From contig NZ_CP089924.1 in the NCBI RefSeq assembly GCF_021284765.1, positions 3,428,001 to 3,492,000 of the forward strand: a stretch of DNA of 64,000 nucleotides, in the 5' to 3' direction. Positions 34,997 to 47,582 of this stretch are shown here, in pieces. The position numbers and the translations under genes were made by a program. The notes under the pieces are model-generated. The model was given only the letters and a program-made list of their open reading frames with translations, searched no databases and had not been told where the DNA came from. The DNA is from Lysobacter sp. 5GHs7-4 (lineage in GTDB: Bacteria > Pseudomonadota > Gammaproteobacteria > Xanthomonadales > Xanthomonadaceae). How positions within the stretch are numbered: the stretch's first letter is position 1; each line of letters starts with the position of its first letter.

Positions 34997-35473
34997 TTAC
35001 TTGCCGTCCTGCGGCGTCACGCCGTCGTCGCGCGATTCCGGCACCGTGCCGGCCTCACGCCGGTCGCGCTGCGCCTGCTTGATCGCCTTGACGTCCAGCG
35101 GACGGATCTGACCGATGTGGCAGGGGAACGGCAGCGCGCCCTGGCCCAGCACCATCACCTTGTCGAAGCGCGCATAGACCCGGCCGGCCTGATTGCTGAC
35201 CGTGATCGCCGAGGCGAAATCCAGGTCCGAGCAGCGCCCCTGCAGTTCCAGCAGATAGGCCTGATTGGGACGCGTCCACACCGCCAGCGCGCTGTCCCCC
35301 AGCGGGGTCCAGCCGTCCAGCCGGCCGTAGTACTGGAAGGCCGGCACCGGCGCGCCGGCGTGGGCGCGGTACAAGGCCAGCCGGTCGGCGTCGCGCATCT
35401 TGGGGTCGGTCGCGCAGGCGCTCATCGCGAACAGCGCCAGCGCGGCGGATACGGCGAATACATAGCGTTTCAT
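34997..35473 (-). CDS. putative lipoprotein (DUF6491-like)
   Basis: Protein of 158 residues with lipobox Cys20 (FAMSAC). The mature part contains VPAFQYYGRLDGWTPLGDSALAVWTRPNQAYLLEL and FPCHIGQIRPLDVKAIK, resembling the DUF6491 family common in xanthomonads; the family name is from memory. The ATG at 35473 begins the signal peptide. It is convergent with yggX, 16 bases apart. Function is unknown. Confidence 0.75.
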   Translation of the reverse strand: MKRYVFAVSAALALFAMSACATDPKMRDADRLALYRAHAGAPVPAFQYYGRLDGWTPLGDSALAVWTRPNQAYLLELQGRCSDLDFASAITVSNQAGRVYARFDKVMVLGQGALPFPCHIGQIRPLDVKAIKQAQRDRREAGTVPESRDDGVTPQDGK

Positions 35474-35658
35474 GACGGCTCCTGAGGAAGGCGTACAGTC
35501 CATGCCTGCGAGTGCATACCGATGGGCTCCGGCACCATCATGCGCCGCTGCCGGCACACCGCGCGGTCCCGGCCGCGCGTCGTTCAGCGCACAGGCGGCT
35601 TGCCAGATCGTTCGGCGCTCCGTATCATCCCGCTCCTCATCACGGCCTGCCGTGAAAT

Positions 35659-35787: not shown

Positions 35788-35892
35788 CTGTTTAGGGCCC
35801 GCGGCCTGCCCGCGACGCCTGTTTCGATCCGCGGTCCGGGTGCCCTGCCCGCCGCCTGCATCAATTTCCGGTCCCGCCTCGTATAGGTCCGC

Positions 35893-36729
35893 ATGGCATC
35901 CACCGTGCGAGCGCCCATGGCCCGTCAATCCCACCCCACCGGGCGTGCCGCCCTGTTCGGCCTGTTGTGCTGCGTCTGGGGCGCGGCCGGCGCGGGCCCG
36001 GTCGAGCGCTACGACGGCCTGGCCTATGCCCGCGACGGCGCCCGCCTGCTCTACCGGGAAACCCATTGGCGCTACGCCGAGCAGGGCGTGGGGCATCGGC
36101 TCGTGCTCTATCGCTGCCCGGGCGGCGAGGCGTTCGCGCGCAAGCGCGTGGTCGACGGCGCCAGCGCGGCGGCGCCCGACTTCGATTTCAGCGACGGCCG
36201 CGACGGCTACCGCGAAGGCGTGCGCAGCCGCGGCGACGGGCGCGAGGTCTACGTGCAGGACGGCGCGCGCGCGCCGCTGCGCAGCCGCGCCCTGAGCCTG
36301 CCGCGCGACGCGGTCATCGATGCCGGTTTCGATGCCATGGTGCGCGCACGCTGGGACGCGCTCTCGCCAGGCCGCGCGATCGCCGTTCCGTTCCTGCTGC
36401 CCAGCCGCTTCGACTTCCTCGATCTGAAACTCGCCGCGGCCGCACCGGCGCGTGTGGACGGCCGAGGCGCGCGACGCCTGCGCATGTCGCTGGACCGCTG
36501 GTACGGCTTCGCGATACCGGCCATCGAGCTCACCTACGCGGACGCGGACCGGCGCTTGTTGGAGTTCCGCGGCATAGGCACGATCCGCGATCGTCGCGGC
36601 CGTCATCTCGACGTACGCATCGCCTTCCCCGCCGATGCGGTTAGCCATGACGCGACGCGCGCCGAGGTCGAACGCGCCACCACGATGCCGCTGGCGCGCA
36701 ACTGCGGCGCCGGATCGCCGTCGGTATGA
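35893..36729 (+). CDS. exported protein of unknown function
   Basis: Protein of 278 residues with a signal-type segment (RAALFGLLCCVWGAAGAGP). The mature part begins VERYDGLAYARDGARLLYRETHWRY and contains FDFSDGRDGYREG and FLLPSRFDFLDLKLAAAAP. I recognise no catalytic motif. An ATG 24 bases downstream is an alternative start. Its stop lies 156 bases before the ECF sigma-factor start, so it could be a first member of that unit or independent. Confidence 0.7.
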   Translation: MASTVRAPMARQSHPTGRAALFGLLCCVWGAAGAGPVERYDGLAYARDGARLLYRETHWRYAEQGVGHRLVLYRCPGGEAFARKRVVDGASAAAPDFDFSDGRDGYREGVRSRGDGREVYVQDGARAPLRSRALSLPRDAVIDAGFDAMVRARWDALSPGRAIAVPFLLPSRFDFLDLKLAAAAPARVDGRGARRLRMSLDRWYGFAIPAIELTYADADRRLLEFRGIGTIRDRRGRHLDVRIAFPADAVSHDATRAEVERATTMPLARNCGAGSPSV

Positions 36730-36884: not shown

Positions 36885-37460
36885 ATGCCCGAGTCTCCGC
36901 AACGCCAGCGCACTCCGGAAAGCGAACGCCTCGATGGCCTCTTGGGCGATGTCGCCGGCGGCGATCGCGGGGCCTTCGAAGCCTTGTACCGCGCCACTTC
37001 CGGCAAGCTGCTGGGCGTATGCCTGCGCGTGCTGCCCGACCGCGCCGAGGCCGAGGACGTGCTGCAGGAGGTCTACGCCAGCGTCTGGCGCAAGGCGGTG
37101 CAGTTCGACGCGCAGCGCGCCAGCGCCATCACCTGGCTGGCGATGATCGCGCGCAACAAGGCCATCGATCGCGCCCGCGCCTTGCCGGCGCCGCAGCGCA
37201 CCGCCTCGATCGAGCTCGCCGACGAAATCGCCGATCACGCGGCCACACCGCTGCAGCAAGCGGAGGCCGCGAACGATCAGAGTCGGCTGGAAATCTGCAT
37301 GCAGCGTCTGGAAGCGCGCCGACGCGCGCTGATCCGCACCGCGTTCTTCGACGGCGCGACCTATGAAGAACTGGCGGCCCGGATCGGTTCGCCGCTGGGC
37401 TCGGTCAAGAGCTGGATCCGTCGCGGTCTGAGCCAACTGCGGGCGTGCCTGGAATCATGA
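36885..37460 (+). CDS. ECF-type RNA polymerase sigma factor
   Basis: Sigma factor of 191 residues with region 2 (FEALYRATSGKLLGVCLRVLPDRAEAEDVLQEVYASVWRKA) and region 4 (RRALIRTAFFDGATYEELAARIGSPLGSVKSWIRRGLSQLRACL). The ATG at 36885 gives the usual ECF length; the frame is open back to 36726, overlapping the previous stop, but that extension lacks family sequence. Its stop overlaps the anti-sigma start by 4 bases. It probably directs transcription of its own operon, as is usual for this group. No consensus ECF promoter is clear to me. Confidence 0.93.
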   Translation: MPESPQRQRTPESERLDGLLGDVAGGDRGAFEALYRATSGKLLGVCLRVLPDRAEAEDVLQEVYASVWRKAVQFDAQRASAITWLAMIARNKAIDRARALPAPQRTASIELADEIADHAATPLQQAEAANDQSRLEICMQRLEARRRALIRTAFFDGATYEELAARIGSPLGSVKSWIRRGLSQLRACLES

Positions 37461-38227
37461 GCGCCCAAGACCCTCGCTTCGACGACGAGACCGGGCCCGA
37501 GCCGCCGGATTCGGATACGCACGCCGCCGAGTACGTGCTGGGCGTGCTCGATGCGCGGCAGCGTCTGCAGGCGCAGGCGCGCATCGCCGCCGATCCCGAG
37601 TTCGCGCGCGCGGTGACGGATTGGGAGCGGCGCCTGGCCGCGCTCCTGGACGAAATCGCGCCCGTCGACGTGCCCGCGCATCTGTGGCCACGCCTGCGCA
37701 CCCGTTTGGGCTGGTCGCCGGTAGGCGAGCCCGCTCGCGGGATCTGGCAGAACCTTGGTTTCTGGCGCACCGCCACCGCGGTCGCCGCCGCGGCTGCGCT
37801 GGCGGCGGTGTTCGTGGGCCGCCTGCCGCAGACGCCGACGCCGACACCGCCGGTAACGCCGCCGATCGCGGTGGAACCGGCCGAGCAGGCCAAGCCGGTC
37901 ACCACCCTGGCGCACGACGACGGCACGCCGGGCTGGCTGGCGTCGCTGGACATCAAACAGGGCAAGGTTCTGATGGTGCCGGTGCCCGCGCCCGCCGATG
38001 CCCAGGGCCGCGTGCCCGAGCTGTGGCTGATTCCGGCTGGCGAAGCGCCGCGCTCCCTGGGCCTGGTGTCGATCGACAAGGCGCATACGGTCGCGGTGCC
38101 CAAGGACTTGCTGCGCGCGCTCAAGGCCGGCTCGACCCTGGCGATCACCCTGGAGCCCGCGGGCGGCGCGCCGCAGGGCGTCCCGACCGGCCCCATCGTC
38201 GCCAAGGGCGGTCTGCAGACGATCTGA
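37457..38227 (+). CDS. RskA-type membrane anti-sigma factor
   Basis: Protein of 256 residues. A cytoplasmic N-terminal sigma-binding region (HAAEYVLGVLDARQRLQAQAR) comes first, then one membrane segment (about 97-117, TAVAAAAALAAVFVG). A periplasmic RskA-like C-terminal domain follows (GWLASLDIKQGKVLMVPVPAP, GRVPELWLIPAGEAPRSLGLV). There is no HxxxCxxC zinc motif, so it differs from ChrR-type zinc anti-sigma factors. It likely holds the sigma factor inactive until an envelope signal triggers release; the signal is unknown. Confidence 0.9.
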   Translation: MSAQDPRFDDETGPEPPDSDTHAAEYVLGVLDARQRLQAQARIAADPEFARAVTDWERRLAALLDEIAPVDVPAHLWPRLRTRLGWSPVGEPARGIWQNLGFWRTATAVAAAAALAAVFVGRLPQTPTPTPPVTPPIAVEPAEQAKPVTTLAHDDGTPGWLASLDIKQGKVLMVPVPAPADAQGRVPELWLIPAGEAPRSLGLVSIDKAHTVAVPKDLLRALKAGSTLAITLEPAGGAPQGVPTGPIVAKGGLQTI

Positions 38228-38295
38228 TCGCGGCGGTGCATCCGCCGCGGGCGTGGCCCCGTACCTCCAGATGACACGCTCATCGGGAGAGTTTC

Positions 38296-39294
38296 ATGCC
38301 GCAGCCGCCGTCCACGCCCTCCTCCGCCAGCGCGGTCGCGGCGGCCGGGCCCGTGCGCCGCCGTCGCTGGTCGGTGCTGTGGCGCTGGGTCGATACCCGC
38401 GCCGGCGACGACGACGGCATGCCCGGCGATGGCATGCGCGACAACGAGGAACGCATCGACTGGCTGCGCGCCTCGCCGTTTCTGGCCATGCATTTGGCCT
38501 GCGTGGCGGTGTTGTGGGTCGGCGTGTCGCCGATCGCGCTGGCGGTGGCGGCGGCGTTGTACGCCTTGCGCATGTTCGCCCTGACCGCGTTCTATCACCG
38601 CTACTTTTCGCACCGCACGTTCCGCACCTCGCGCGCGGTGCAATTTTTGTTCGCCCTGATCGGCGCGTCCTGCGTGCAACGCGGACCGTTGTGGTGGGCC
38701 GCGCACCATCGCAACCACCATCGCCATACCGAGACCGCGCTGGACCCGCATTCGCCCAGCGTGCATGGCTTTCTTTGGAGCCATGTCGGCTGGTTCCTGA
38801 CCCCGCATGCGTTCCGCACGGATCTGTCGCGCGTGCCCGATCTGGCGCGCTATCCGGAACTGCGTTGGTTGGACCGGTACGACACCGCGGTACCCGTCGC
38901 GCTGGCCGCCTCGCTTTACGGCGCGGGCGTGTTGCTGGAGCGTTATGCACCGGCCCTGGGCACCAGCGGCGGACAGATGCTGGTCTGGGGCTTCTTCGTC
39001 TCGACCACGGTGCTGTTCCACTGCACGGTGACGATCAACTCGCTCGCCCACCGCTACGGCACGCGCCGTTTCGATACCGCTGACGACAGCCGCAATAATT
39101 TCTGGCTGGCGCTGATCACCTTCGGCGAAGGCTGGCACAACAACCATCACTTCTTCCCCGGCACGGTCCGGCAAGGCTTCCGCTGGTGGGAGGTCGATCT
39201 GACCTGGTACGCGTTGCGCGCGATGGCCGTGCTGGGCCTGGTGCGCGATCTCAAGCCGATTCCCGAATGGGTCGCGGCGAAGGCGCGGGGCTGA
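38296..39294 (+). CDS. membrane fatty-acyl desaturase
   Basis: Di-iron acyl-CoA/acyl-lipid desaturase of 332 residues. Three histidine clusters are present: HRYFSH, HHRNHH and HNNHH (in GEGWHNNHHFFP), the delta-9 type spacing. Four membrane segments alternate with them. It introduces double bonds into acyl chains with oxygen, providing the unsaturated substrates that CFA-type enzymes need. The ATG at 38296 has GGGAGAG upstream. It begins 68 bases after the anti-sigma gene and 3 bases before the next gene. Confidence 0.92.
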   Translation: MPQPPSTPSSASAVAAAGPVRRRRWSVLWRWVDTRAGDDDGMPGDGMRDNEERIDWLRASPFLAMHLACVAVLWVGVSPIALAVAAALYALRMFALTAFYHRYFSHRTFRTSRAVQFLFALIGASCVQRGPLWWAAHHRNHHRHTETALDPHSPSVHGFLWSHVGWFLTPHAFRTDLSRVPDLARYPELRWLDRYDTAVPVALAASLYGAGVLLERYAPALGTSGGQMLVWGFFVSTTVLFHCTVTINSLAHRYGTRRFDTADDSRNNFWLALITFGEGWHNNHHFFPGTVRQGFRWWEVDLTWYALRAMAVLGLVRDLKPIPEWVAAKARG

Positions 39295-39297
39295 GCC

Positions 39298-40605
39298 ATG
39301 CGCATCGCGGTGATCGGATCGGGCATCGCCGGCTTGGCATCGGCCTGGCTGCTGTCGCGCCGGCACGAGGTGACCCTGTTCGAGAGCAACGGCTATCTCG
39401 GCGGTCATACCCATACCCACGACATCGAATTGCACGGCCGCCGTTACGCCATCGACAGCGGCTTCATCGTTCACAACCCGCGTCACTATCCGCTGCTTAC
39501 CCGCCTGTTCCGCGAGCTCGGCGTGGCGACGCAGCCGACCACGATGAGTTTCTCGGTGCGCAACGAGGCCAGCGGGCTGGAGTACAACGCCTCGACCCTG
39601 GACGCGCTGTTCTGCCAGCGCCGCAATCTGGCGTCGCCGCGCTTCCTGGGCATGGTCGCCGACCTGTTGCGCTTCTACCGCCAGGCGCCGGCTTTGCTGG
39701 ACGGCGACGGCGACGGGCCCACGCTGGGCGACTACCTGAGCGAACACCGTTACGGCGCCGCCTTCCGCGACGAGCATCTGGTGCCGATGGCATCGGCCTT
39801 GTGGTCGGCGCCCAGCGCCGCGGTGCTGGCCTTCCCCGCGCGCTACCTGGTTCGCTTCATGGCCAACCACCAGATGCTGCAAGTCGCCGGACGCCCGCAA
39901 TGGGCGGTGGTGCGCGGCGGCTCGGCGCGCTACGTCGATGCCCTGCGCGCGCGCTGGCGCGTGCAGGAACGCCTGGGCTGCGCGGTACGCACGCTGCGTC
40001 GCGACGCCGAGGCCGTCGAGATCGAGAGCGCGCATGGCAGCGAACGCTACGATCACGCGGTCCTGGCCTGCCACAGCGATCAAGCGCTGGCCTTGCTCGC
40101 CGATGCCGATCCACGCGAGCGCGAGATCCTCGGCGCGATTCCCTACCAGGCCAATGTAGCGGTGCTGCACACCGATGCCGCGATGCTGCCGCGCCAGCGC
40201 AAGGCCTGGGCGGCATGGAACGCCTGCGTGTCGCGCGATCCCAACGAGGCCTGCTCCGTCAGCTACTGCATGAACCTGCTGCAGGGCATCGACGCGCCCG
40301 ACCCCTTCGTGGTCACGCTCAACCGCGCCGCCGCGATCGATCCCGCGCGCGTGCTGCGCCGGCTGCAATACGCGCATCCCGTCTACAGTCACGCCTCGGT
40401 GGCCGCGCAGGCGCGCAAGCCCGAGATCCAGGGCCGGCGCCGCACCTGGTTCGCAGGCGCCTACTGGGGCTGGGGTTTCCACGAGGACGGCATGCGCAGC
40501 GCGGTCGAGGTCGCGCAGGCCTTGGACGCCCCCTGGGAAACGGCGACGGTGCCCGCGGCCGAGGTCGCGGCCATAGCGCCCGGCCTGGCGGAGTTGGTCG
40601 CGTGA
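39298..40605 (+). CDS. FAD-dependent oxidoreductase (amine-oxidase-like)
   Basis: Flavoprotein of 435 residues with an N-terminal Rossmann site (IAVIGSGIAGLASAWLLSRR, then VTLFESNGYLGGHTHT) and a closing WFAGAYWGWGFHEDGMRSAVEV that completes the FAD site. This family accompanies DUF1365 and CFA synthase genes in many proteobacteria. Related flavoenzymes desaturate methylated fatty acyl chains in the Rhodobacter furan-fatty-acid route, as I recall, so a lipid substrate is more likely than an amine. The stop overlaps the next start (GTGA). Confidence 0.88.
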   Translation: MRIAVIGSGIAGLASAWLLSRRHEVTLFESNGYLGGHTHTHDIELHGRRYAIDSGFIVHNPRHYPLLTRLFRELGVATQPTTMSFSVRNEASGLEYNASTLDALFCQRRNLASPRFLGMVADLLRFYRQAPALLDGDGDGPTLGDYLSEHRYGAAFRDEHLVPMASALWSAPSAAVLAFPARYLVRFMANHQMLQVAGRPQWAVVRGGSARYVDALRARWRVQERLGCAVRTLRRDAEAVEIESAHGSERYDHAVLACHSDQALALLADADPREREILGAIPYQANVAVLHTDAAMLPRQRKAWAAWNACVSRDPNEACSVSYCMNLLQGIDAPDPFVVTLNRAAAIDPARVLRRLQYAHPVYSHASVAAQARKPEIQGRRRTWFAGAYWGWGFHEDGMRSAVEVAQALDAPWETATVPAAEVAAIAPGLAELVA

Positions 40606-41399
40606 ACCGCGCCGACGCGCCGCTGCACAGCGCCGTCTACGAGGGCGTGGTACGCCATCGCCGTTTTCGGCCGCATGCGCATCGCTTCGAGTACCGCATC
40701 GCCCAGCTCTATCTGGACCTGTCCGAACTCGACCGCGTGTTCGCGGGCCGTCGGCTGTGGTCGGTGGACCGCCCCAATCTGGCCGAATTCCGGCGCAGCG
40801 ATTACCTCGGACCGGCCTCCCTGCCGCTTGACGAAGCGGTGCGCCAGCGCGTCGAGCACATCAGCGGCCGTCGTCCGCTCGGTCCGATCCGCCTGCTCAC
40901 CCACCTGCGTTACGCCGGATATGTCTTCAACCCGGTCAGCTTCTACTACTGCCACGACCCCGACGGCGCGCTGGATTGCGTGCTGGCCGAGATCACCAAC
41001 ACGCCCTGGCGCGAGCGCCACGCCTATGTGCTGCCGGTGCGCGAGGCGCGCCGGCACGGGCGCGCCTTGAGCTGGGGCTTCGACAAGCGTTTCCACGTCT
41101 CGCCCTTCATGCCGATGCGGCGCCGCTACGACTGGCGGTTCACGCCGCCGGACCAGGACTTGCACGTGCGCATGCAGGTACGCGACGCGCACGGCGTCGA
41201 GTTCGACGCCGGCCTGCACCTGCAGCGCCAGGCCTTGGACGCGGGCGCGCTCGCGCGCGTGCTGTGGCGCTATCCGCTGATGACCGCGCGCGTGGTCGGC
41301 GCGATCCATTGGCAGGCCCTGCGCCTTTGGCTGAAGCGAAATCCGGTTTACGACCATCCCGATCACGACCATCCCGATTTGCAACGAGGACCGCCATGA
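40602..41399 (+). CDS. DUF1365 domain protein
   Basis: Protein of 265 residues matching DUF1365: YEGVVRHRRFRPHAHRFEYRI at the start, RLLTHLRYAGYVFNPVSFYYC, NTPWRERHAYVLP and DKRFHVSPFMPMRRRYDWRF. The family is nearly always found between the FAD oxidoreductase and CFA synthase and probably acts on the same lipid, but no reaction is established to my knowledge. The GTG at 40602 overlaps the previous stop. The stop overlaps the CFA start (ATGA). Confidence 0.9.
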   Translation: MNRADAPLHSAVYEGVVRHRRFRPHAHRFEYRIAQLYLDLSELDRVFAGRRLWSVDRPNLAEFRRSDYLGPASLPLDEAVRQRVEHISGRRPLGPIRLLTHLRYAGYVFNPVSFYYCHDPDGALDCVLAEITNTPWRERHAYVLPVREARRHGRALSWGFDKRFHVSPFMPMRRRYDWRFTPPDQDLHVRMQVRDAHGVEFDAGLHLQRQALDAGALARVLWRYPLMTARVVGAIHWQALRLWLKRNPVYDHPDHDHPDLQRGPP

Positions 41400-42673
41400 A
41401 CACCACCGCATCCGCACTCGCAGGCCCGGCCGCGGGCTACGGCGCCGGCGTACGCTTTCTGCGCAAGCGCCTGCTCGCGCGACTGCGCGGTCTGGAACAC
41501 GGCCGCCTGGTGCTGGAGGACGCCTGCGGCAGGGTCGAGTTCGGCCTGCCGGCGGCGCAGCGCCCGGCTTTGCAAGTTCATCTGAGCGTGCGCGATCCGC
41601 GCTTCTATCAGGCGGTCGCCAGCAACGGCAGCGTCGGCGCCGGCGAGGCCTACATGGACGGCTATTGGGACTGCGACGATCCGGTCGCGCTGATCCGGCT
41701 GCTGCTGCGCAATCGCGAACGCCTGGACGCCATGGAGCGCGGCGGCGCGCGTCTGGGCGGATGGGCGATGCGCGCCTGGCATGCCCTGCGCCGCAACACG
41801 CGCGCAGGCAGCCGTCGCAACATCGCCGCGCACTACGACCTGGGCAACGAATTCTTCGCCCTGTTCCTGTCGTCAGACCTCATGTACTCGTCGGCGGTGT
41901 GGGAAGGCGGCGACGACACCCTGGAAACCGCGTCCAGGCGCAAGCTGGACCTGATCTGCGCCAAGCTGGATCTGCGCCCCGGCGACCGCGTGATCGAGAT
42001 CGGCAGCGGCTGGGGCGGTTTCGCCGTGCATGCGGCGCGCCACTACGGCTGCCACGTCACCACCACCACGATCTCCGGCGAGCAGTACGCGCTGGCTCAG
42101 GCGCGCGTCGCCGAGGCCGGCCTCGGCGATCGCGTCGAGGTGCTGCGTCAGGACTATCGCGATCTGCGCGGGCAATACGACAAGCTGGTCTCGATCGAAA
42201 TGGTCGAGGCCATCGGCGCCAGCTACCTCGACAGCTACTTCGCACAGATCGGGCGGCTGTTGCGCCCGGGCGGGCGCGCCCTGATCCAGGCCATCACGAT
42301 CGAGGATCACCGCTATACGCAGGCCCTGAAGTCTGTCGACTTCATCAAGCGCCACGTATTCCCAGGCAGTTTCATTCCTTCGATAGCGGCCCTGCTCGCG
42401 GCCAAGACACGCGCCAGCGACCTGGCCCTGATCCGCCTGGACGATTACGGCAGTTCGTACGCGCGCACCCTGCAGGCCTGGCGCCAGCGCTTTCTCGCGC
42501 AGCTCGCGCAGGTGCGCGCGCAAGGCCACGACGAGCGCTTCATCCGCATGTGGGAGCACTACCTGGTCTATTGCGAAGGCGGTTTCCGCGAAGCCTCCAT
42601 CGGCGTCGCCCAGTTGCTGTTCGCACGCCCGGGCATCGGCGCGGACGCGGCGCGCACGGAGGCCTCGGCGTGA
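41396..42673 (+). CDS. cfa: cyclopropane-fatty-acyl-phospholipid synthase
   Basis: S-adenosylmethionine-dependent enzyme of 425 residues acting on unsaturated chains in membrane phospholipids. Present: AHYDLGNEFFALFLSSDLMYSSAVW, SAM motif VIEIGSGWGGFAVHAARHYG, SIEMVEAIGASYLDSYF, and the C-terminal YCEGGFREASIG with the cysteine found in true CFA synthases. Whether it forms cyclopropanes or methyl-branched chains cannot be told. Both ends overlap neighbouring genes by 4 bases, so it is firmly in the operon. Confidence 0.93.
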   Translation: MNTTASALAGPAAGYGAGVRFLRKRLLARLRGLEHGRLVLEDACGRVEFGLPAAQRPALQVHLSVRDPRFYQAVASNGSVGAGEAYMDGYWDCDDPVALIRLLLRNRERLDAMERGGARLGGWAMRAWHALRRNTRAGSRRNIAAHYDLGNEFFALFLSSDLMYSSAVWEGGDDTLETASRRKLDLICAKLDLRPGDRVIEIGSGWGGFAVHAARHYGCHVTTTTISGEQYALAQARVAEAGLGDRVEVLRQDYRDLRGQYDKLVSIEMVEAIGASYLDSYFAQIGRLLRPGGRALIQAITIEDHRYTQALKSVDFIKRHVFPGSFIPSIAALLAAKTRASDLALIRLDDYGSSYARTLQAWRQRFLAQLAQVRAQGHDERFIRMWEHYLVYCEGGFREASIGVAQLLFARPGIGADAARTEASA

Positions 42674-43227
42674 GCTTCTGGAGCAACCTGATCGGCTATC
42701 AACTGGTCTGGTTCGCCGCCGTGATCGGCGCCGGGCGCGGCACGCCGTGGCCGGGCACGATCGCCGCCGCGTTGTTCGTCGCTTGGCAGCTGTCGTCCGC
42801 GGGTCGCGCGCGCGAATGGCGTTTGCTGGTCGCGGCCGTGGCCGCGGGGGCGCTGGTCGACGGCGCCCTGGCCTGGTCGGGTCTGGCGCATTACGCGGCC
42901 GCGCGGCCGGCGCTGCCGGGCGGCGGCGCGCCGCTGTGGATCCTGGCGCTGTGGTCGGCGTTCGCGCTGACCCTGACCCAGTCGCTGTCGGCCCTGCGCG
43001 CACGCCTCTGGCTGGCGGCCGTGCTCGGCGCGATCGGCGCGCCGCTGGCCTACCTGGGCGCGGCACGCGGTTGGCAGGCGGTGAGCTTCGCCGCCCCGGT
43101 CTGGCCCGGCGTACTGGCCCTGGCCATCGGCTGGGCCGTGGCGCTGACGCTGTTGGCGCGCCTGGCCCAGCGGATGGGGCGCACCGACGGCGCGGTCACC
43201 GCGCCGGTGCTAAGGAGTCGACGATGA
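42670..43227 (+). CDS. DUF2878 membrane protein
   Basis: Hydrophobic protein of 185 residues with about five membrane segments (NLIGYQLVWFAAVIGAG, TIAAALFVAWQLSS, LWILALWSAFALTLTQSLSAL, GVLALAIGWAVALTLLARL). The start GTG overlaps the CFA stop. The DUF2878 family occurs in CFA/DUF1365 operons; function is unknown. The stop overlaps the DUF1295 start. Confidence 0.85.
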   Translation: MSFWSNLIGYQLVWFAAVIGAGRGTPWPGTIAAALFVAWQLSSAGRAREWRLLVAAVAAGALVDGALAWSGLAHYAAARPALPGGGAPLWILALWSAFALTLTQSLSALRARLWLAAVLGAIGAPLAYLGAARGWQAVSFAAPVWPGVLALAIGWAVALTLLARLAQRMGRTDGAVTAPVLRSRR

Positions 43228-44027
43228 ACCCCTGGTGGTCGCTGGCGATGGTCTGGCTGGGCGCGGCGCTGGCGATGAGCGTGGGCTGGCGTTGGCAGCG
43301 CCAGCGACACAACGCGGGCATCGTCGATGCGATCTGGGCCGCGGGCGTCGGAGGCAGTGCGGTGCTGCTGGCCGTGCTGGGCGATGGCGCGCCGCTGCCG
43401 CGCGCGCTGCTCGCGCTGCTCGGCGGCGTTTGGGGGTTGCGTCTGGCGCTGCATCTGTGGCGGCGCGTGCGCGGCGAAGCGGAGGACGGCCGCTATCGCC
43501 ATTTGCGCGCGCACTGGCAGGGCCATCAGGGCAAGTTCTGGCTGTTCTTCCAGTTCCAGGCCGTGCTGGTGGTGCTGTTCGCGTTGCCGTTCGCGGCGGT
43601 GGCGCGCAATCCTGTGGCCGCGCCCACGCTGTGGACAGCGCTGGGCGTGACGATCTGGGGACTGAGCGTGGCCGGCGAAGCCATCGCCGACCGCCAGCTG
43701 GCGCGTTTTCGCGCCGATCCCGGCAACCGCGGCCGTACCTGCCGGACCGGTTTGTGGCGCTACTCGCGCCACCCCAACTACTTCTTCGAATGGACGCACT
43801 GGTTCGCCTATGTGGCGCTGGCGGTGGGATCGCCCTGGGCCTGGCTGGCCTGGAGCGGCCCGCTGGTGATGTACCTGTTCCTGCGCTGGATCAGCGGCGT
43901 GCCTTACACCGAAGCGCAGGCGCTGCGCACGCGCGGCGAGGACTACCGCGCCTATCAACGCAGCACGCCGATGCTGATCCCCTGGTTTCCGCGCAACGAC
44001 GCCAACGACAAGAGGACCGCCCCATGA
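43224..44027 (+). CDS. DUF1295 steroid-5-alpha-reductase-like membrane protein
   Basis: Protein of 267 residues with about six membrane segments. The C-terminal GLWRYSRHPNYFFEWTHWFAYVALAVG and YTEAQALRTRGEDYRAYQRSTP place it in the DUF1295/isoprenylcysteine-methyltransferase-like fold, whose members include NADPH-dependent double-bond reductases. In this operon a role in reducing or modifying an acyl-chain double bond is a fair inference. Start and stop overlap neighbours by 4 bases. Confidence 0.88.
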   Translation: MNPWWSLAMVWLGAALAMSVGWRWQRQRHNAGIVDAIWAAGVGGSAVLLAVLGDGAPLPRALLALLGGVWGLRLALHLWRRVRGEAEDGRYRHLRAHWQGHQGKFWLFFQFQAVLVVLFALPFAAVARNPVAAPTLWTALGVTIWGLSVAGEAIADRQLARFRADPGNRGRTCRTGLWRYSRHPNYFFEWTHWFAYVALAVGSPWAWLAWSGPLVMYLFLRWISGVPYTEAQALRTRGEDYRAYQRSTPMLIPWFPRNDANDKRTAP

Positions 44028-45109
44028 ACCGCAGCGCCGTCGCCGACGAACTCGAACACGACCTGCCCGCCCCGGGCGTGCTGGGCTGGGCCGAACGCGG
44101 CAAAGTGCCCGACGCATTGCTGCGCGCCGGCATCCGCCGCTTGTGCGCGCAGCGCCTTAGCGAGGAACGGCGCGGCGGCCTTGAGCAACGCGCGCATCGC
44201 TACCAGCAGCGCATCGAACAACTGCGACGCAGTCCGGTGGCCATCCACACCGATGCCGCCAATGCTCAGCACTACGAACTGCCGCCGGCGTTCTTCAAGC
44301 TGTGCCTGGGACGCCGGCTCAAGTACTCGGGCTGCTACTACGCGCGCGGCGACGAGAGCCTGGACCAGGCCGAGGACGCCATGCTGGCGCTGTACGGCGA
44401 ACGCGCCGAGTTGCGCGACGGCCAGCGCATCCTCGAACTCGGCTGCGGCTGGGGGTCGCTGACGCTGTGGATGGCCGAGCGCTATCCGCACGCGCGCATC
44501 ACCGCGGTGTCGAACTCGCAGGCGCAGCGCGCGCATATCGAGGCGCAGTGCCGTCAACGCGGGCTGTTCAACGTCGAAGTGCTGACCCAGGACGTCAACC
44601 GGCTGGAGCTGCCCGAGCAGCGCTACGACCGCTGCGTGTCGGTGGAGATGTTCGAGCACATGCGCAACTACGAGCTGCTGATGCGGCGCATCTCGCGCTG
44701 GCTGGCGCCGGGCGGCAAGTTGTTCGTGCATATCTTCGCCCACCGCGAACTGCTGTATCCGTTCGAGACCCAGGGCGAGGACAACTGGATGGGCCGTCAT
44801 TTCTTCACCGGCGGTCTGATGCCCGCCGCCGACACCCTGTTGTGGTTTCAGGACGAGCTGCGTATCGAACAGCGCTGGCAGGTCGACGGCCGCCATTACC
44901 AGCGCACCGCCGACCATTGGCTGCGCAACCAGGACCAGCGCCGCGAAGAGGTCATGACGGTCCTGCGCGAGGCCTATGGCGCCCAGGCCGGACTGTGGTT
45001 TCAGCGTTGGCGCATGTTCTGGATGGCTTGCGCGGAAATGTTCGGCTATGCCGATGGGCAGGAATGGCTGGTGGCCCACTACCGCTTCGTACGCGATCCC
45101 TCCGCTTGA
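44024..45109 (+). CDS. second CFA-like SAM-dependent methyltransferase
   Basis: Protein of 361 residues distinct from the CFA synthase upstream. It has NAQHYELPPAFFKLCLGRRLKYSGCYY, SAM motif ILELGCGWGSLTLWMAERYP, and VSVEMFEHMRNYELLMRRISRWL, but no YCEGGF region; instead it ends GLWFQRWRMFWMACAEMFGY. This variety resembles CFA/coclaurine-methyltransferase-like enzymes found with DUF1295. Having two different CFA-type enzymes in one operon suggests a product needing two methyl-transfer or ring steps, or two substrates. Confidence 0.88.
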   Translation: MNRSAVADELEHDLPAPGVLGWAERGKVPDALLRAGIRRLCAQRLSEERRGGLEQRAHRYQQRIEQLRRSPVAIHTDAANAQHYELPPAFFKLCLGRRLKYSGCYYARGDESLDQAEDAMLALYGERAELRDGQRILELGCGWGSLTLWMAERYPHARITAVSNSQAQRAHIEAQCRQRGLFNVEVLTQDVNRLELPEQRYDRCVSVEMFEHMRNYELLMRRISRWLAPGGKLFVHIFAHRELLYPFETQGEDNWMGRHFFTGGLMPAADTLLWFQDELRIEQRWQVDGRHYQRTADHWLRNQDQRREEVMTVLREAYGAQAGLWFQRWRMFWMACAEMFGYADGQEWLVAHYRFVRDPSA

Positions 45110-45127
45110 GCCCAGGAGCCTGTCGAC

Positions 45128-45667
45128 ATGGCCGCACACCGAATTGCGCTGATCCTCGCCAGTCTGATCGCCGGCTGCTCGGGCAACGTGCGCCCGATCG
45201 CACCGGTGGCGGAGGTCGATCTGGATCGCTTCATGGGCGACTGGTACGTGATCGCCCATATCCCCTCGCGCCCTGAGCGCGAGGCTTACAACGCGATCGA
45301 GAACTACCGGCGCGCGGACGACGGCAGGATCCTGACCCGCTTCCGCTATCGCGACGGCGGATTCGATCGTCCCGTCGAGACCATGCACCCGGTCGGCACG
45401 GTCAAGGCCGGCACCGGCAACGCGGTCTGGGGCATGCAGTTCGTGTGGCCGATCCAGGCCGAATACGTGGTCGTCTATCTGAGCCCTGACTACTCCCAGA
45501 CCATCATCGGGCGCAGCAAGCGCGACTACGCCTGGATCATGGCGCGCGGCCCGACCCTGTCCGAGGCGGATTACCAGGCCCATCTGGCGCGCCTGCGCGA
45601 GCTGGGCTACTCCCTGGACGGCCTGCGCAAGGTGCCGCAGGTCTGGCCGGAGCCCGCCGCGCCCTGA
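45128..45667 (+). CDS. outer-membrane lipocalin (Blc-type lipoprotein)
   Basis: Lipoprotein of 179 residues, lipobox Cys17 (ASLIAGC). The lipocalin signature is VDLDRFMGDWYVIAHIPS near residue 35, with IENYRRADDGRILTRFRYRDGG and IIGRSKRDYAWIMARGPTLSE following. Blc binds fatty acids and lysophospholipids and is induced by envelope stress in enteric bacteria. It is the last gene of the lipid operon, 18 bases after the methyltransferase, and fits a role in carrying modified acyl chains. Confidence 0.92.
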   Translation: MAAHRIALILASLIAGCSGNVRPIAPVAEVDLDRFMGDWYVIAHIPSRPEREAYNAIENYRRADDGRILTRFRYRDGGFDRPVETMHPVGTVKAGTGNAVWGMQFVWPIQAEYVVVYLSPDYSQTIIGRSKRDYAWIMARGPTLSEADYQAHLARLRELGYSLDGLRKVPQVWPEPAAP

Positions 45668-45958: not shown

Positions 45959-47350
45959 TCAATAGCCTTGCGCGACCTGCGCGGCCTCGTAGGCGTCGAC
46001 ATGGCCGCTGCCGACCTCGAACGGCAGACGGCCGGCCATGGGATTGGCCGTGGCGGTCAGGATCTGCTTGACCTCGGCCGGGGTGAGCGCCGGATTGGCC
46101 TCCAGCAGCAGGGCGACGATGCCGGCCACGTGCGGGGTCGCCATCGAGGTGCCGCTCATGTGGGTATAGAACAGCGCCTTGGCGCCCAGCGACGCATCCT
46201 GCTGCGCGGCCAGCAGCGGCAGCACACCGGTCAAGGCGCGGGTCGAGACGATGTCGACGCCGGTCGCCACCAGGCTGGGCTGGTTGGTGTAGGTCCAGGT
46301 GCTGCCGTCGGCCATGTTGAAGCTGCCGGTCTCGCCCGGATTGCCGCGCGAGGAGAAGTCGGCCAGGGTGCCGTCCTTGTTGCCGGCGCCGACCGAGATC
46401 ACCCAGGGCGCCTGCGCGTAGGGGTTGTGGGTATTCGCGCCGGGGCCGTCGTTGCCGGCCGCGAACACGCTGACGATGCCGCGCTTGTAGGCCTCGTAGC
46501 TGGCGACGTTGACCGGGTCGGTGGGATCGAACGCGCCCGAGGTGCCCCAGGAATTGGAGATCACCCGGATCGGCGCGGCGAAGCTGTTCTGCTTGCTGAT
46601 CGCGTAGTCGTAGCCGCCGACCGCGTCCAGGATCGAGATCACCGCGCCGGAACCGTAGCCGACCAGGTCGGCGCCGGTGGCGACACCGCGGTACAGGCCG
46701 GCCGACTGCGCGCCGCTGCCGCCGACGGTGCCGGCGCAATGGGTGCCGTGGCCGGAGCCCAGATCGGTGTTGAGCTGGTTCTCCAGCACCACCACCGGCA
46801 GGAAATCCAGCACCGAATGCAGGTTGGTCAGCGCCTGCACGTTCTGCACCACGCGCACGCCGTACTTGAGGTCGGCATGGGTGGCGTCGATGCCGGAGTC
46901 GTTGATCATCACCGTCACGCCGCGCCCGGTGTAGGGCGTGGTGCGGCCGAAATCGCCAGGATTGGCCTGCACCCGATTGACCCCGGACAGCTCGCGCGCC
47001 TCCTGGTTGTAGTACTCCAGGTTGCGGTTGAGGTGGATCGCGCGCACGTCGCTGCGCTGCGCCAGGGCGCGGATCTGCGCCGGCGTCGCCAGCGCGCCGG
47101 CGATCGGCAGGTTGCGCATGCTGATGCCCTTGCCGATGCCCAGGCTGCGCAGCGCCTGCAGCTGGGTCGCGCTGACCGGGCTGCGCTGGTCGTAGGACAC
47201 CACGACTTCTAGCTTGTCCAGAGCGCCGACGGTGCCGAGTACGCGGTTCAGGGCCGAATCGATATGAGCGCCGGCCAGGGCCATGCCGCTGGCCATCATG
47301 CCCACGGCCAGCGCGGACAGCTTGAGGAAGTTACGGCGGGTGCGATGCAT
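45959..47350 (-). CDS. S8 family serine peptidase with Tat-type signal
   Basis: Subtilisin-like protease of 463 residues. The N-terminus [20 protein letters not shown] matches the twin-arginine signal pattern. A propeptide-like region ([18 protein letters not shown] to [10 protein letters not shown], about 45-125) follows. The catalytic triad is intact: Asp in [13 protein letters not shown] (about 152), His in [10 protein letters not shown] (about 203) and Ser in [12 protein letters not shown] (about 401), with the oxyanion Asn in SNSWG. Export of a folded protease by Tat would be unusual, since most secreted subtilases use Sec. The ATG at 47350 is placed at the signal peptide. Confidence 0.9.
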
Positions 47351-47582
47351 GCAGTGGGTTCTCCATGGGTCTGCGAACGGCGCCGGAGCGATGCGGGGGA
47401 CCGGCACCCGCACCTTGGCCGGCCGCTTCGGGGTCCAGCCATCCGGATGAACGCCCAAACGCCCTGGGGGAAAATCCCTAGAGACGCAGGCGGGTCACGC
47501 GGAGTACGCTCGGCGCATGCCGTTGCTCTGTCTGCGCCCACGGCGGACGCCGACCTGGGCCACGGTCCACGGGGGGTGTGAC

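Follow-up and report, generated by a model that had tools for sequence, protein, structure and literature searches.

In Rhodobacter sphaeroides and Rhodopseudomonas palustris, furan fatty acids (FuFA) are built by four enzymes. UfaM methylates cis-vaccenate, the flavin adenine dinucleotide (FAD) enzyme UfaD forms a methylated diene, UfaO (DUF1365) closes the furan with O2, and FufM puts a second methyl on the ring, its substrate being the furan 9M5-FuFA and not an 18:1 chain (available sections of PMC7380195). A UfaM from the gammaproteobacterium Halomonas has also been published (available part of PMC12089945). Here we describe a related operon from Lysobacter sp. 5GHs7-4, located in the window, a stretch of 64,000 nucleotides (positions 3,428,001 to 3,492,000 of contig NZ_CP089924.1, assembly GCF_021284765.1) whose coordinates are used for the features below. 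We consider it likely that this is a stress-inducible operon that makes dimethylated FuFA on membrane phospholipids, and probably also services them, and that here SigK/RskA replaces the classical RpoE/ChrR switch.

The regulators on both sides of this replacement are known from other settings. The RpoE/ChrR (ECF11) singlet-oxygen regulon has the same core targets and the same promoter frame, nnATCC-N16-CGTA (available parts of PMC6852236, PMC5507510 and PMC4336711), with TGATCC-N16-CGTA as the published consensus (the latter two sources, same parts). FuFA genes are, in R. sphaeroides, required for the turnover of ChrR (PMC6852236, likewise in part). For the SigK/RskA systems of Mycobacterium and Yersinia (ECF18/ECF19), cysteines 133 and 183 of SigK are described as redox-active, and the known target mpt83/mpt70 differs from the genes discussed here; neither "fatty acid" nor "cyclopropane" occurs in the available part of that source (PMC7509140). 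A SigK/RskA-like pair of R. capsulatus, rcc00699/rcc00698, holds the RpoE/ChrR role and is induced by singlet oxygen, but that species lacks homologs of RSP_1090/1091 (UfaD/UfaO), so there was no FuFA operon to hand over (PMC7074977, available text).

A cluster with the same product order as the window operon, smlt2375-smlt2367, has been described in Stenotrophomonas maltophilia. Its first gene codes for a periplasmic protein and is followed by those for a desaturase, the FAD oxidoreductase and a hypothetical protein; next come CfaS2, two proteins of the inner membrane, CfaS1 and finally a lipocalin. Loss of chrR raises the expression of each of the nine genes 165- to 697-fold, and expression comes back down without the sigma factor (PMC11832516). 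The word "furan" does not occur in the main text of that paper; from gene order and annotation we infer that the cluster is the same operon. Its expression data support co-regulation and speak against a simple singlet-oxygen role. In S. maltophilia, however, the regulators are RpoE/ChrR together with ChrA and lie divergently, whereas SigK/RskA lies inside the operon in the window. Among the papers listed by a literature search that left subscription journals mostly outside, none described SigK/RskA control of these genes, DUF1295 as a FuFA gene, or FuFA in this order of bacteria.

The features of the locus, all on the + strand, are:

35858 to 35883, +: P1, predicted SigK promoter upstream of gene X, GCATCA-N16-CGTA (one mismatch)
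35917 to 36729, +: gene X, predicted secreted protein (start 35917 favored over 35893)
36885 to 37460, +: SigK-type extracytoplasmic function (ECF) sigma factor (Pfam), with Cys138 and Cys188 and with W177 and R180 in the -35 recognition helix
37457 to 38227, +: RskA-type anti-sigma factor (Pfam RskA_C, 4.5e-22), one transmembrane segment predicted from hydropathy near residue 102
38238 to 38263, +: P2, predicted SigK promoter, GCATCCGCCGCGGGCGTGGCCCCGTA, 32 nt 5' of the desaturase ATG
38296 to 39294, +: membrane acyl desaturase related to acyl-CoA desaturase 1 (FA_desaturase 1.4e-22; 4ymk 1.2e-26)
39298 to 40605, +: UfaD homolog, by homology an FAD-dependent desaturase of methylated acyl chains
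40602 to 41399, +, GTG start: UfaO homolog, putative O2-dependent furan-ring formation (DUF1365 2.5e-85)
41396 to 42673, +: UfaM homolog (CFA1), putative S-adenosylmethionine-dependent acyl methylase, not a cyclopropane fatty acid (CFA) synthase (CMAS 8.9e-81)
42670 to 43227, +, GTG start: DUF2878 membrane protein (3.8e-35)
43224 to 44027, +: DUF1295, predicted membrane NADPH-type C=C reductase (4.8e-67)
44024 to 45109, +: FufM-like methyltransferase (CFA2) of the FufM/LIME1/coclaurine N-methyltransferase (CNMT) branch, predicted second ring methylation (CMAS 1.4e-37)
45128 to 45667, +: Blc-type outer-membrane lipocalin (Lipocalin_2 6.3e-39; best PDB match temperature-induced lipocalin 8wb2, 5.1e-14, then Blc entries)

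A sequence-only reading had proposed a sigma-controlled operon of ten genes with 4-base overlaps at most junctions. The ten open reading frames from 36885 to 45667 are indeed intact and on one strand, every domain named was confirmed by Pfam, and six of the nine junctions overlap by four bases; at the remaining three the genes are 68 nt (rskA to desaturase), 3 nt (desaturase to FAD gene) and 18 nt (CFA2 to lipocalin) apart. The extent is another matter: all ten genes are present, but the unit probably starts one gene upstream of the sigma factor, at gene X.

To place the locus we compared 121 DUF1365 loci, the window and 120 others, which cover nearly all close relatives and about one per genus of a sample of the phylum (Pseudomonadota); fragmentary DUF1365 matches in G180 and G279 were excluded. 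A second set of named loci comprises the best 80 of 571 and is mostly from Lysobacterales. Within 8 kb of DUF1365, 119 of the 121 loci have the FAD gene and 109 a CFA1/UfaM-type gene, so that their clustering is not due to chance.

The sigma factor finds its best PDB match in SigK (4nqw, 1.3e-29), with both cysteines aligned. As in Mycobacterium and Yersinia, it belongs to the SigK clade, carries both cysteines and is accompanied by a protein with RskA_C and a transmembrane segment. From an RpoE/ChrR (ECF11) system the window differs in sigma clade, in its partner (RskA), in the promoter (GCATCC, not TGATCC) and in the recognition helix (W..R). A tree of the sigma factors places all 18 RskA-linked sequences in the SigK clade, each with both cysteines, and all 45 ChrR-linked ones in a clade with R. 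sphaeroides RpoE, none of them with the two cysteines. The ChrR cupin PF12973 has no match in the Lysobacter sp. 5GHs7-4 genome at E <= 0.001; conversely, the relatives G011, G024, G303, G152 and G029 combine the operon with ChrR and show no SigK-like sigma factor at E <= 1e-30. One sigma factor of locus L116 (14038-14802), lacking a recognized anti-sigma factor, also falls in the SigK clade. This second SigK-type protein lacks the cysteines and is counted as SigK nonetheless; it retains W..R in its helix, and the FuFA locus close to its gene has four GCATCC-N16-CGTA sites.

When the spacer of GCATCC-Nk-CGTA is varied across the 121 loci, k = 16 yields 57 matches in 31 loci, against 1 to 6 matches for each other k between 10 and 23. 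The N16 form is found in all ten SigK/RskA loci (20 matches), all three loci with SigK in trans (9 matches), four of five Lysobacterales RpoE/ChrR loci (12 matches), three of the 40 other RpoE/ChrR loci (3 matches) and 11 of 63 loci without a linked regulator (13 matches). Those 40 classical loci have TGATCC-N16-CGTA (57 matches in 34 loci), which occurs once in the ten SigK/RskA loci. Among the named loci GCATCC-N16-CGTA is present in 29 of 29 RskA-type, 29 of 30 ChrR-type and 12 of 21 remaining loci, and TGATCC-N16-CGTA in none of the 80. In both of the nearest relatives (L052, L054) P1 occupies the same site and shows the identical mismatch, and an exact motif stands upstream of X in others; for P2, 64 of 73 named loci carry the exact motif no more than 300 nt upstream of the desaturase match. 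Taken by itself, the window has no more of these motifs than chance would give.

Promoter and recognition helix vary together. In all 40 classical RpoE proteins the first position is R and the second L, A or M, never R; their loci show TGATCC in 32 cases and neither motif in eight. SigK proteins read W..R without exception (46/46), and Lysobacterales RpoE proteins H/S/T/N..R (34/34; GCATCC in 32 loci, neither motif in two). For loci without a linked sigma factor, genomes were searched for 7 of 11 GCATCC loci and 9 of 12 TGATCC loci (omitting G057, G048, G182, G282, G090 and G200; for G339 the helix was assigned by visual inspection). All seven GCATCC genomes hold a W..R or H..R sigma factor and no R..L at E <= 1e-18. 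An R..L protein is present in seven of the nine TGATCC genomes, five of which also have a SigK-like sigma factor; of the other two, G105 gave no sigma match and G237 only a SigK. The shared GCATCC promoter and the covariation of the helix point to a predicted dimethyl-FuFA operon under SigK/RskA control.

RskA-type rather than ChrR-type control had been singled out as unusual. The contrast holds up and forms the most interesting feature of the locus, but other genomes share it. The 80 named loci divide into 29 RskA-type, 30 ChrR-type and 21 with neither, none having both in the stretch seen; these labels are set by the anti-sigma gene, and 4 of the 59 labeled loci have no sigma factor over 120 bits in that stretch. 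A SigK-type sigma factor adjoins in 27 of the 29 RskA loci, and an RpoE-type one over 120 bits is found in 28 of the 30 ChrR loci. Luteimonas, Rhodanobacter, Dyella and Lysobacter occur on both sides, and in some cases the two cassettes occupy one and the same slot. A tree of UfaD, UfaO, UfaM and FufM with 70 rows (excluding L116 for its long branch, L051 as a duplicate of L246, the three loci with SigK in trans and 20 in which no anti-sigma factor was recognized) has nine label changes in its best form, and at least four once only branches with ultrafast bootstrap >= 95 and approximate likelihood ratio test (aLRT) >= 80 are kept; an earlier, quick tree of 95 rows gave 10 changes, seven at the strict count. 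What would be new here is this repeated exchange of SigK/RskA and RpoE/ChrR at one operon, predicted to have happened at least four times with a single promoter kept. Achromobacter and a Bordetella (L290, L292, L297) carry the operon with SigK/RskA inside a mostly Lysobacterales operon tree, which points to transfer between orders. In L198 (G014) and L203 (G004), SigK/RskA pairs with the motif upstream come from same-genus genomes without a DUF1365 match, so that the pair can outlive or precede a FuFA operon.

Turning to the enzymes, the window has the same trio of gene types, adjacent to each other, as the characterized R. palustris RPA2569-2571 (PMC7380195, available sections). It differs in carrying the fufM-like gene in the same operon, together with DUF1295, DUF2878, a desaturase, a lipocalin and X. 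Its UfaD is 39-41% identical to UfaD of loci whose sigma factor groups with R. sphaeroides RpoE. The description of CFA1 and CFA2 as two CFA-like methyltransferases proved misleading, since neither groups with Cfa. A tree of 182 CMAS-family proteins (support 99-100 in the Shimodaira-Hasegawa-like aLRT (SH-aLRT), no bootstrap; plant CNMT on a long branch; no reference UfaM in the tree, and RPA0924 and LIME1 outside the sequences compared) resolves three groups. The UfaM clade (109 rows, SH-aLRT 99), made up of proteins from DUF1365 loci, includes CFA1; the clade of FufM and plant CNMT (68 rows) includes CFA2; and in the Cfa group Escherichia coli Cfa (6bqc) pairs with the third CMAS protein of the genome, at 2346952.

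The catalytic residues tell a similar story. The bicarbonate of Cfa catalysis is bound by Glu239, His266 and Tyr317 (PMC11387697, available part). At the Cfa positions C139/E239/H266/I268/Y317/H240, CFA1 reads S-E-Q-I-Y-A, and its loss of His266 is consistent with an enzyme that methylates without closing a cyclopropane ring. E-Q-I-Y at E239/H266/I268/Y317 occurs in 109 of the 182 rows, a count equal to the size of the UfaM clade, the commonest patterns being SEQIYA (94 rows) and AEQIYA (11 rows). The pattern CEHIYH is confined to five rows: 6bqc, 7qos, 5z9o, the third CMAS protein of the genome and one in L122. CFA2 reads GEHFYH and so keeps the ligands E, H and Y, with G at Cys139, but it belongs to the CNMT/FufM clade; its match to plant CNMT (6gkv, E 4.9e-78) compares with 4.4e-25 for Cfa synthase (6bqc). 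The reported identity between FufM and Arabidopsis LIME1/AT4G33110 is 37.87% (PMC10940516, available part). It is because CFA2 groups with this CNMT/LIME1 branch that a dimethyl FuFA is predicted.

FufM-like genes occur in 26 of 299 genomes, 25 of which also have DUF1365 (Fisher p 3.5e-9, a test that, like the one below, counts related genomes as independent). Near ufaO, a desaturase (within 8 kb) and a FufM-like gene are each found in 74 of the 80 named loci; both belonged to the combination that had been singled out as unusual, and are ordinary here. Thus the trio and CFA2 constitute a well-supported predicted pathway to a dimethyl FuFA, with some uncertainty as to its acyl substrate, and an earlier guess at a furan acyl chain, well supported by homology, is narrowed to the dimethyl form. 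Within the FufM clade, proteins of L212 (G093, a genome without DUF1365), L213 (G206) and L215 (G336) have lost E-H-F-Y and read CEHVYQ, CEQVYR and CEQVYQ; this sub-branch may have another substrate. In L078 (G052) the DUF1365 match is split into two neighboring pieces beside RpoE/ChrR, possibly a decaying UfaO.

Across Pseudomonadota, the accessory gene DUF1295 is linked with FufM and UfaO. It is predicted to adopt a sterol-reductase-like membrane fold, shared over its whole length with the steroid 5-alpha-reductase/sterol reductase superfamily, and on this basis may be an NADPH-dependent C=C reductase. It is present in 24 of the 26 genomes with a FufM-like gene (Fisher p 2.7e-22; 299 genomes), and in 17 of the 26 the FufM-like gene lies within 1.5 kb of it. 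All 20 DUF1295 matches above 140 bits are linked to FufM or UfaO, as against 2 of 25 weaker ones, and in G323 and G262 separate DUF1295-FufM loci carry the same promoter as the ufaD loci of these genomes. In Chlamydomonas, the singlet-oxygen induction of CFA1, CFA2 (CPLD27, "coclaurine N-methyltransferase"), DUF1365 and DUF1295 requires SAK1 (PMC4067076); a DUF2177 gene is also among the SAK1-dependent singlet-oxygen genes (Table 5 there).

Gene X matches no Pfam or NCBIfam family. Homologs are found in 20 of the 121 loci, the window included, and number 647 in a wider search; the predicted fold (predicted local distance difference test score 89.6) is LolA/RseB/DUF1849-like and periplasmic, and gene order suggests correspondence to the periplasmic Smlt2375 of S. 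maltophilia. DUF2878 is near ufaO in 50 of the 121 loci. The functions proposed here for DUF2878, X and DUF1295 are guesses based on linkage and fold. Divergent from X, on the minus strand (35000-35476), lies a DUF6491 lipoprotein gene (1.8e-53) with homologs only in the two closest relatives among the loci searched. In other loci (L045:3512-4393, also L044, L046, L047, L048 and L050) the gene divergent from X has its own GCATCC-N16-CGTA; both copies scanned are outer-membrane beta-barrels (OMP_b-brl), likely an extra regulon member in large-genome relatives. Directly downstream of the lipocalin, a subtilase gene (Peptidase_S8, 1.2e-43; 45959-47458, minus strand) is convergent.

Could the same genes make something other than a furan? 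Two genuine cyclopropane synthases with accessory oxidoreductases, yielding cyclopropane or other carbocyclic chains, would account for the CMAS domain in both CFA1 and CFA2, and the authors of the S. maltophilia study, who name CfaS1/CfaS2, propose a CFA-type membrane change (PMC11832516). We regard this as quite unlikely: it is the third protein of the genome, and neither of these two, that goes with 6bqc, CFA1 lacks His266 and Cys139, CFA2 is CNMT/FufM-like, and DUF1365 travels with both methyltransferases. A pathway to 10-methyl branched chains of the BfaAB/Tms type, a family that methylates and then reduces with an FAD enzyme without furan formation, would use the same enzyme classes, an FAD oxidoreductase and a CMAS-like methylase, and could employ the predicted C=C reductase DUF1295. 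It appears very improbable, as the pair is accompanied by DUF1365/UfaO (in loci that were chosen by DUF1365), the ring-forming step in R. sphaeroides, and FufM works on a furan, not 18:1.

On the regulatory side, several observations weigh against the reading preferred here. The FuFA operon may hold while the exchange is overstated, if whole operons were transferred or the tree is unstable: strict support forces only four changes instead of nine, the achromobacters and a Bordetella inside the group show that transfer occurs, and the labels follow the anti-sigma gene, with the four exceptions given above. Yet Dyella shows the order lipocalin-sigma-rskA (L220, L222) and lipocalin-sigma-chrR (L264) in the same slot, as does Rhodanobacter with sigma-rskA-desaturase (L223) and sigma-chrR-desaturase (L237, L245, L248), and even a single exchange requires the promoter match observed; overstatement is unlikely, if worth keeping in mind. 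SigK/RskA might also adjoin the genes without controlling them, with another sigma factor at P1 and P2. The pair is unlinked in L046-L048, and a pattern search of the Lysobacter genome yields few other convincing targets. But the L046-L048 genomes retain SigK elsewhere, each of the eight unlinked sigK loci has the motif 299-413 nt upstream of its sigma match, and the missing ChrR cupin match and the helix/promoter covariation fit the same picture, which makes a bystander role hard to credit.

For FuFA synthesis under SigK/RskA, the following course can be envisaged. A membrane signal, probably oxidized lipid or redox stress, would act on RskA and/or on the Cys138/Cys188 pair of SigK; the trigger is presumably envelope or oxidative stress. 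Freed SigK would transcribe P1 (X-sigK-rskA) and P2 (desaturase to lipocalin) via GCATCC-N16-CGTA, a step with strong comparative evidence. The desaturase presumably provides cis double bonds, and by homology to the R. sphaeroides and R. palustris enzymes UfaM would methylate the chain, UfaD form the methyl diene and UfaO insert O2 to give the furan. The FufM-like enzyme would then place the second ring methyl, as shown for R. palustris FufM. DUF1295 may reduce a C=C bond in a lipid derived from the furan, perhaps a reactive dioxoene formed upon oxidation, and X and the lipocalin may transport or detect lipids that are modified or damaged, in the periplasm and at the outer membrane. The sigma/anti-sigma cassette of this lineage would have been swapped repeatedly with RpoE/ChrR over an unchanged promoter set.

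Taken further, the operon might be a complete furan redox device with a plug-in sensor cassette. The ring would trap singlet oxygen or radicals and turn into a reactive dioxoene, DUF1295 would reduce it within the membrane, and the RseB/LolA-like X and the lipocalin would carry or report damaged lipid. SigK/RskA and RpoE/ChrR would interchange because their -35 helices converged on one promoter, and in lineages without ChrR the furan lipid would not act via ChrR turnover, its proposed role in R. sphaeroides, but as a scavenger or a signal to RskA. As a joint proposal this is speculative and rather doubtful.

A superoxide-tolerance cluster so far called "CFA-like" can thus be re-read as a predicted dimethyl furan lipid pathway. 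Candidate missing parts are DUF1295, DUF2878 and a new secreted family (X), with support in bacteria and, for DUF1295, also in a green alga. Two unrelated sigma/anti-sigma systems swapped over an unchanged promoter would represent a clean natural experiment on how regulation evolves. It becomes testable whether furan lipids serve as scavengers or as second messengers, because ChrR turnover requires them in R. sphaeroides, yet 29 of the 59 labeled loci are RskA-type, with no ChrR in the stretch. Lineages without ChrR would separate scavenging from a ChrR-signaling role of FuFA.

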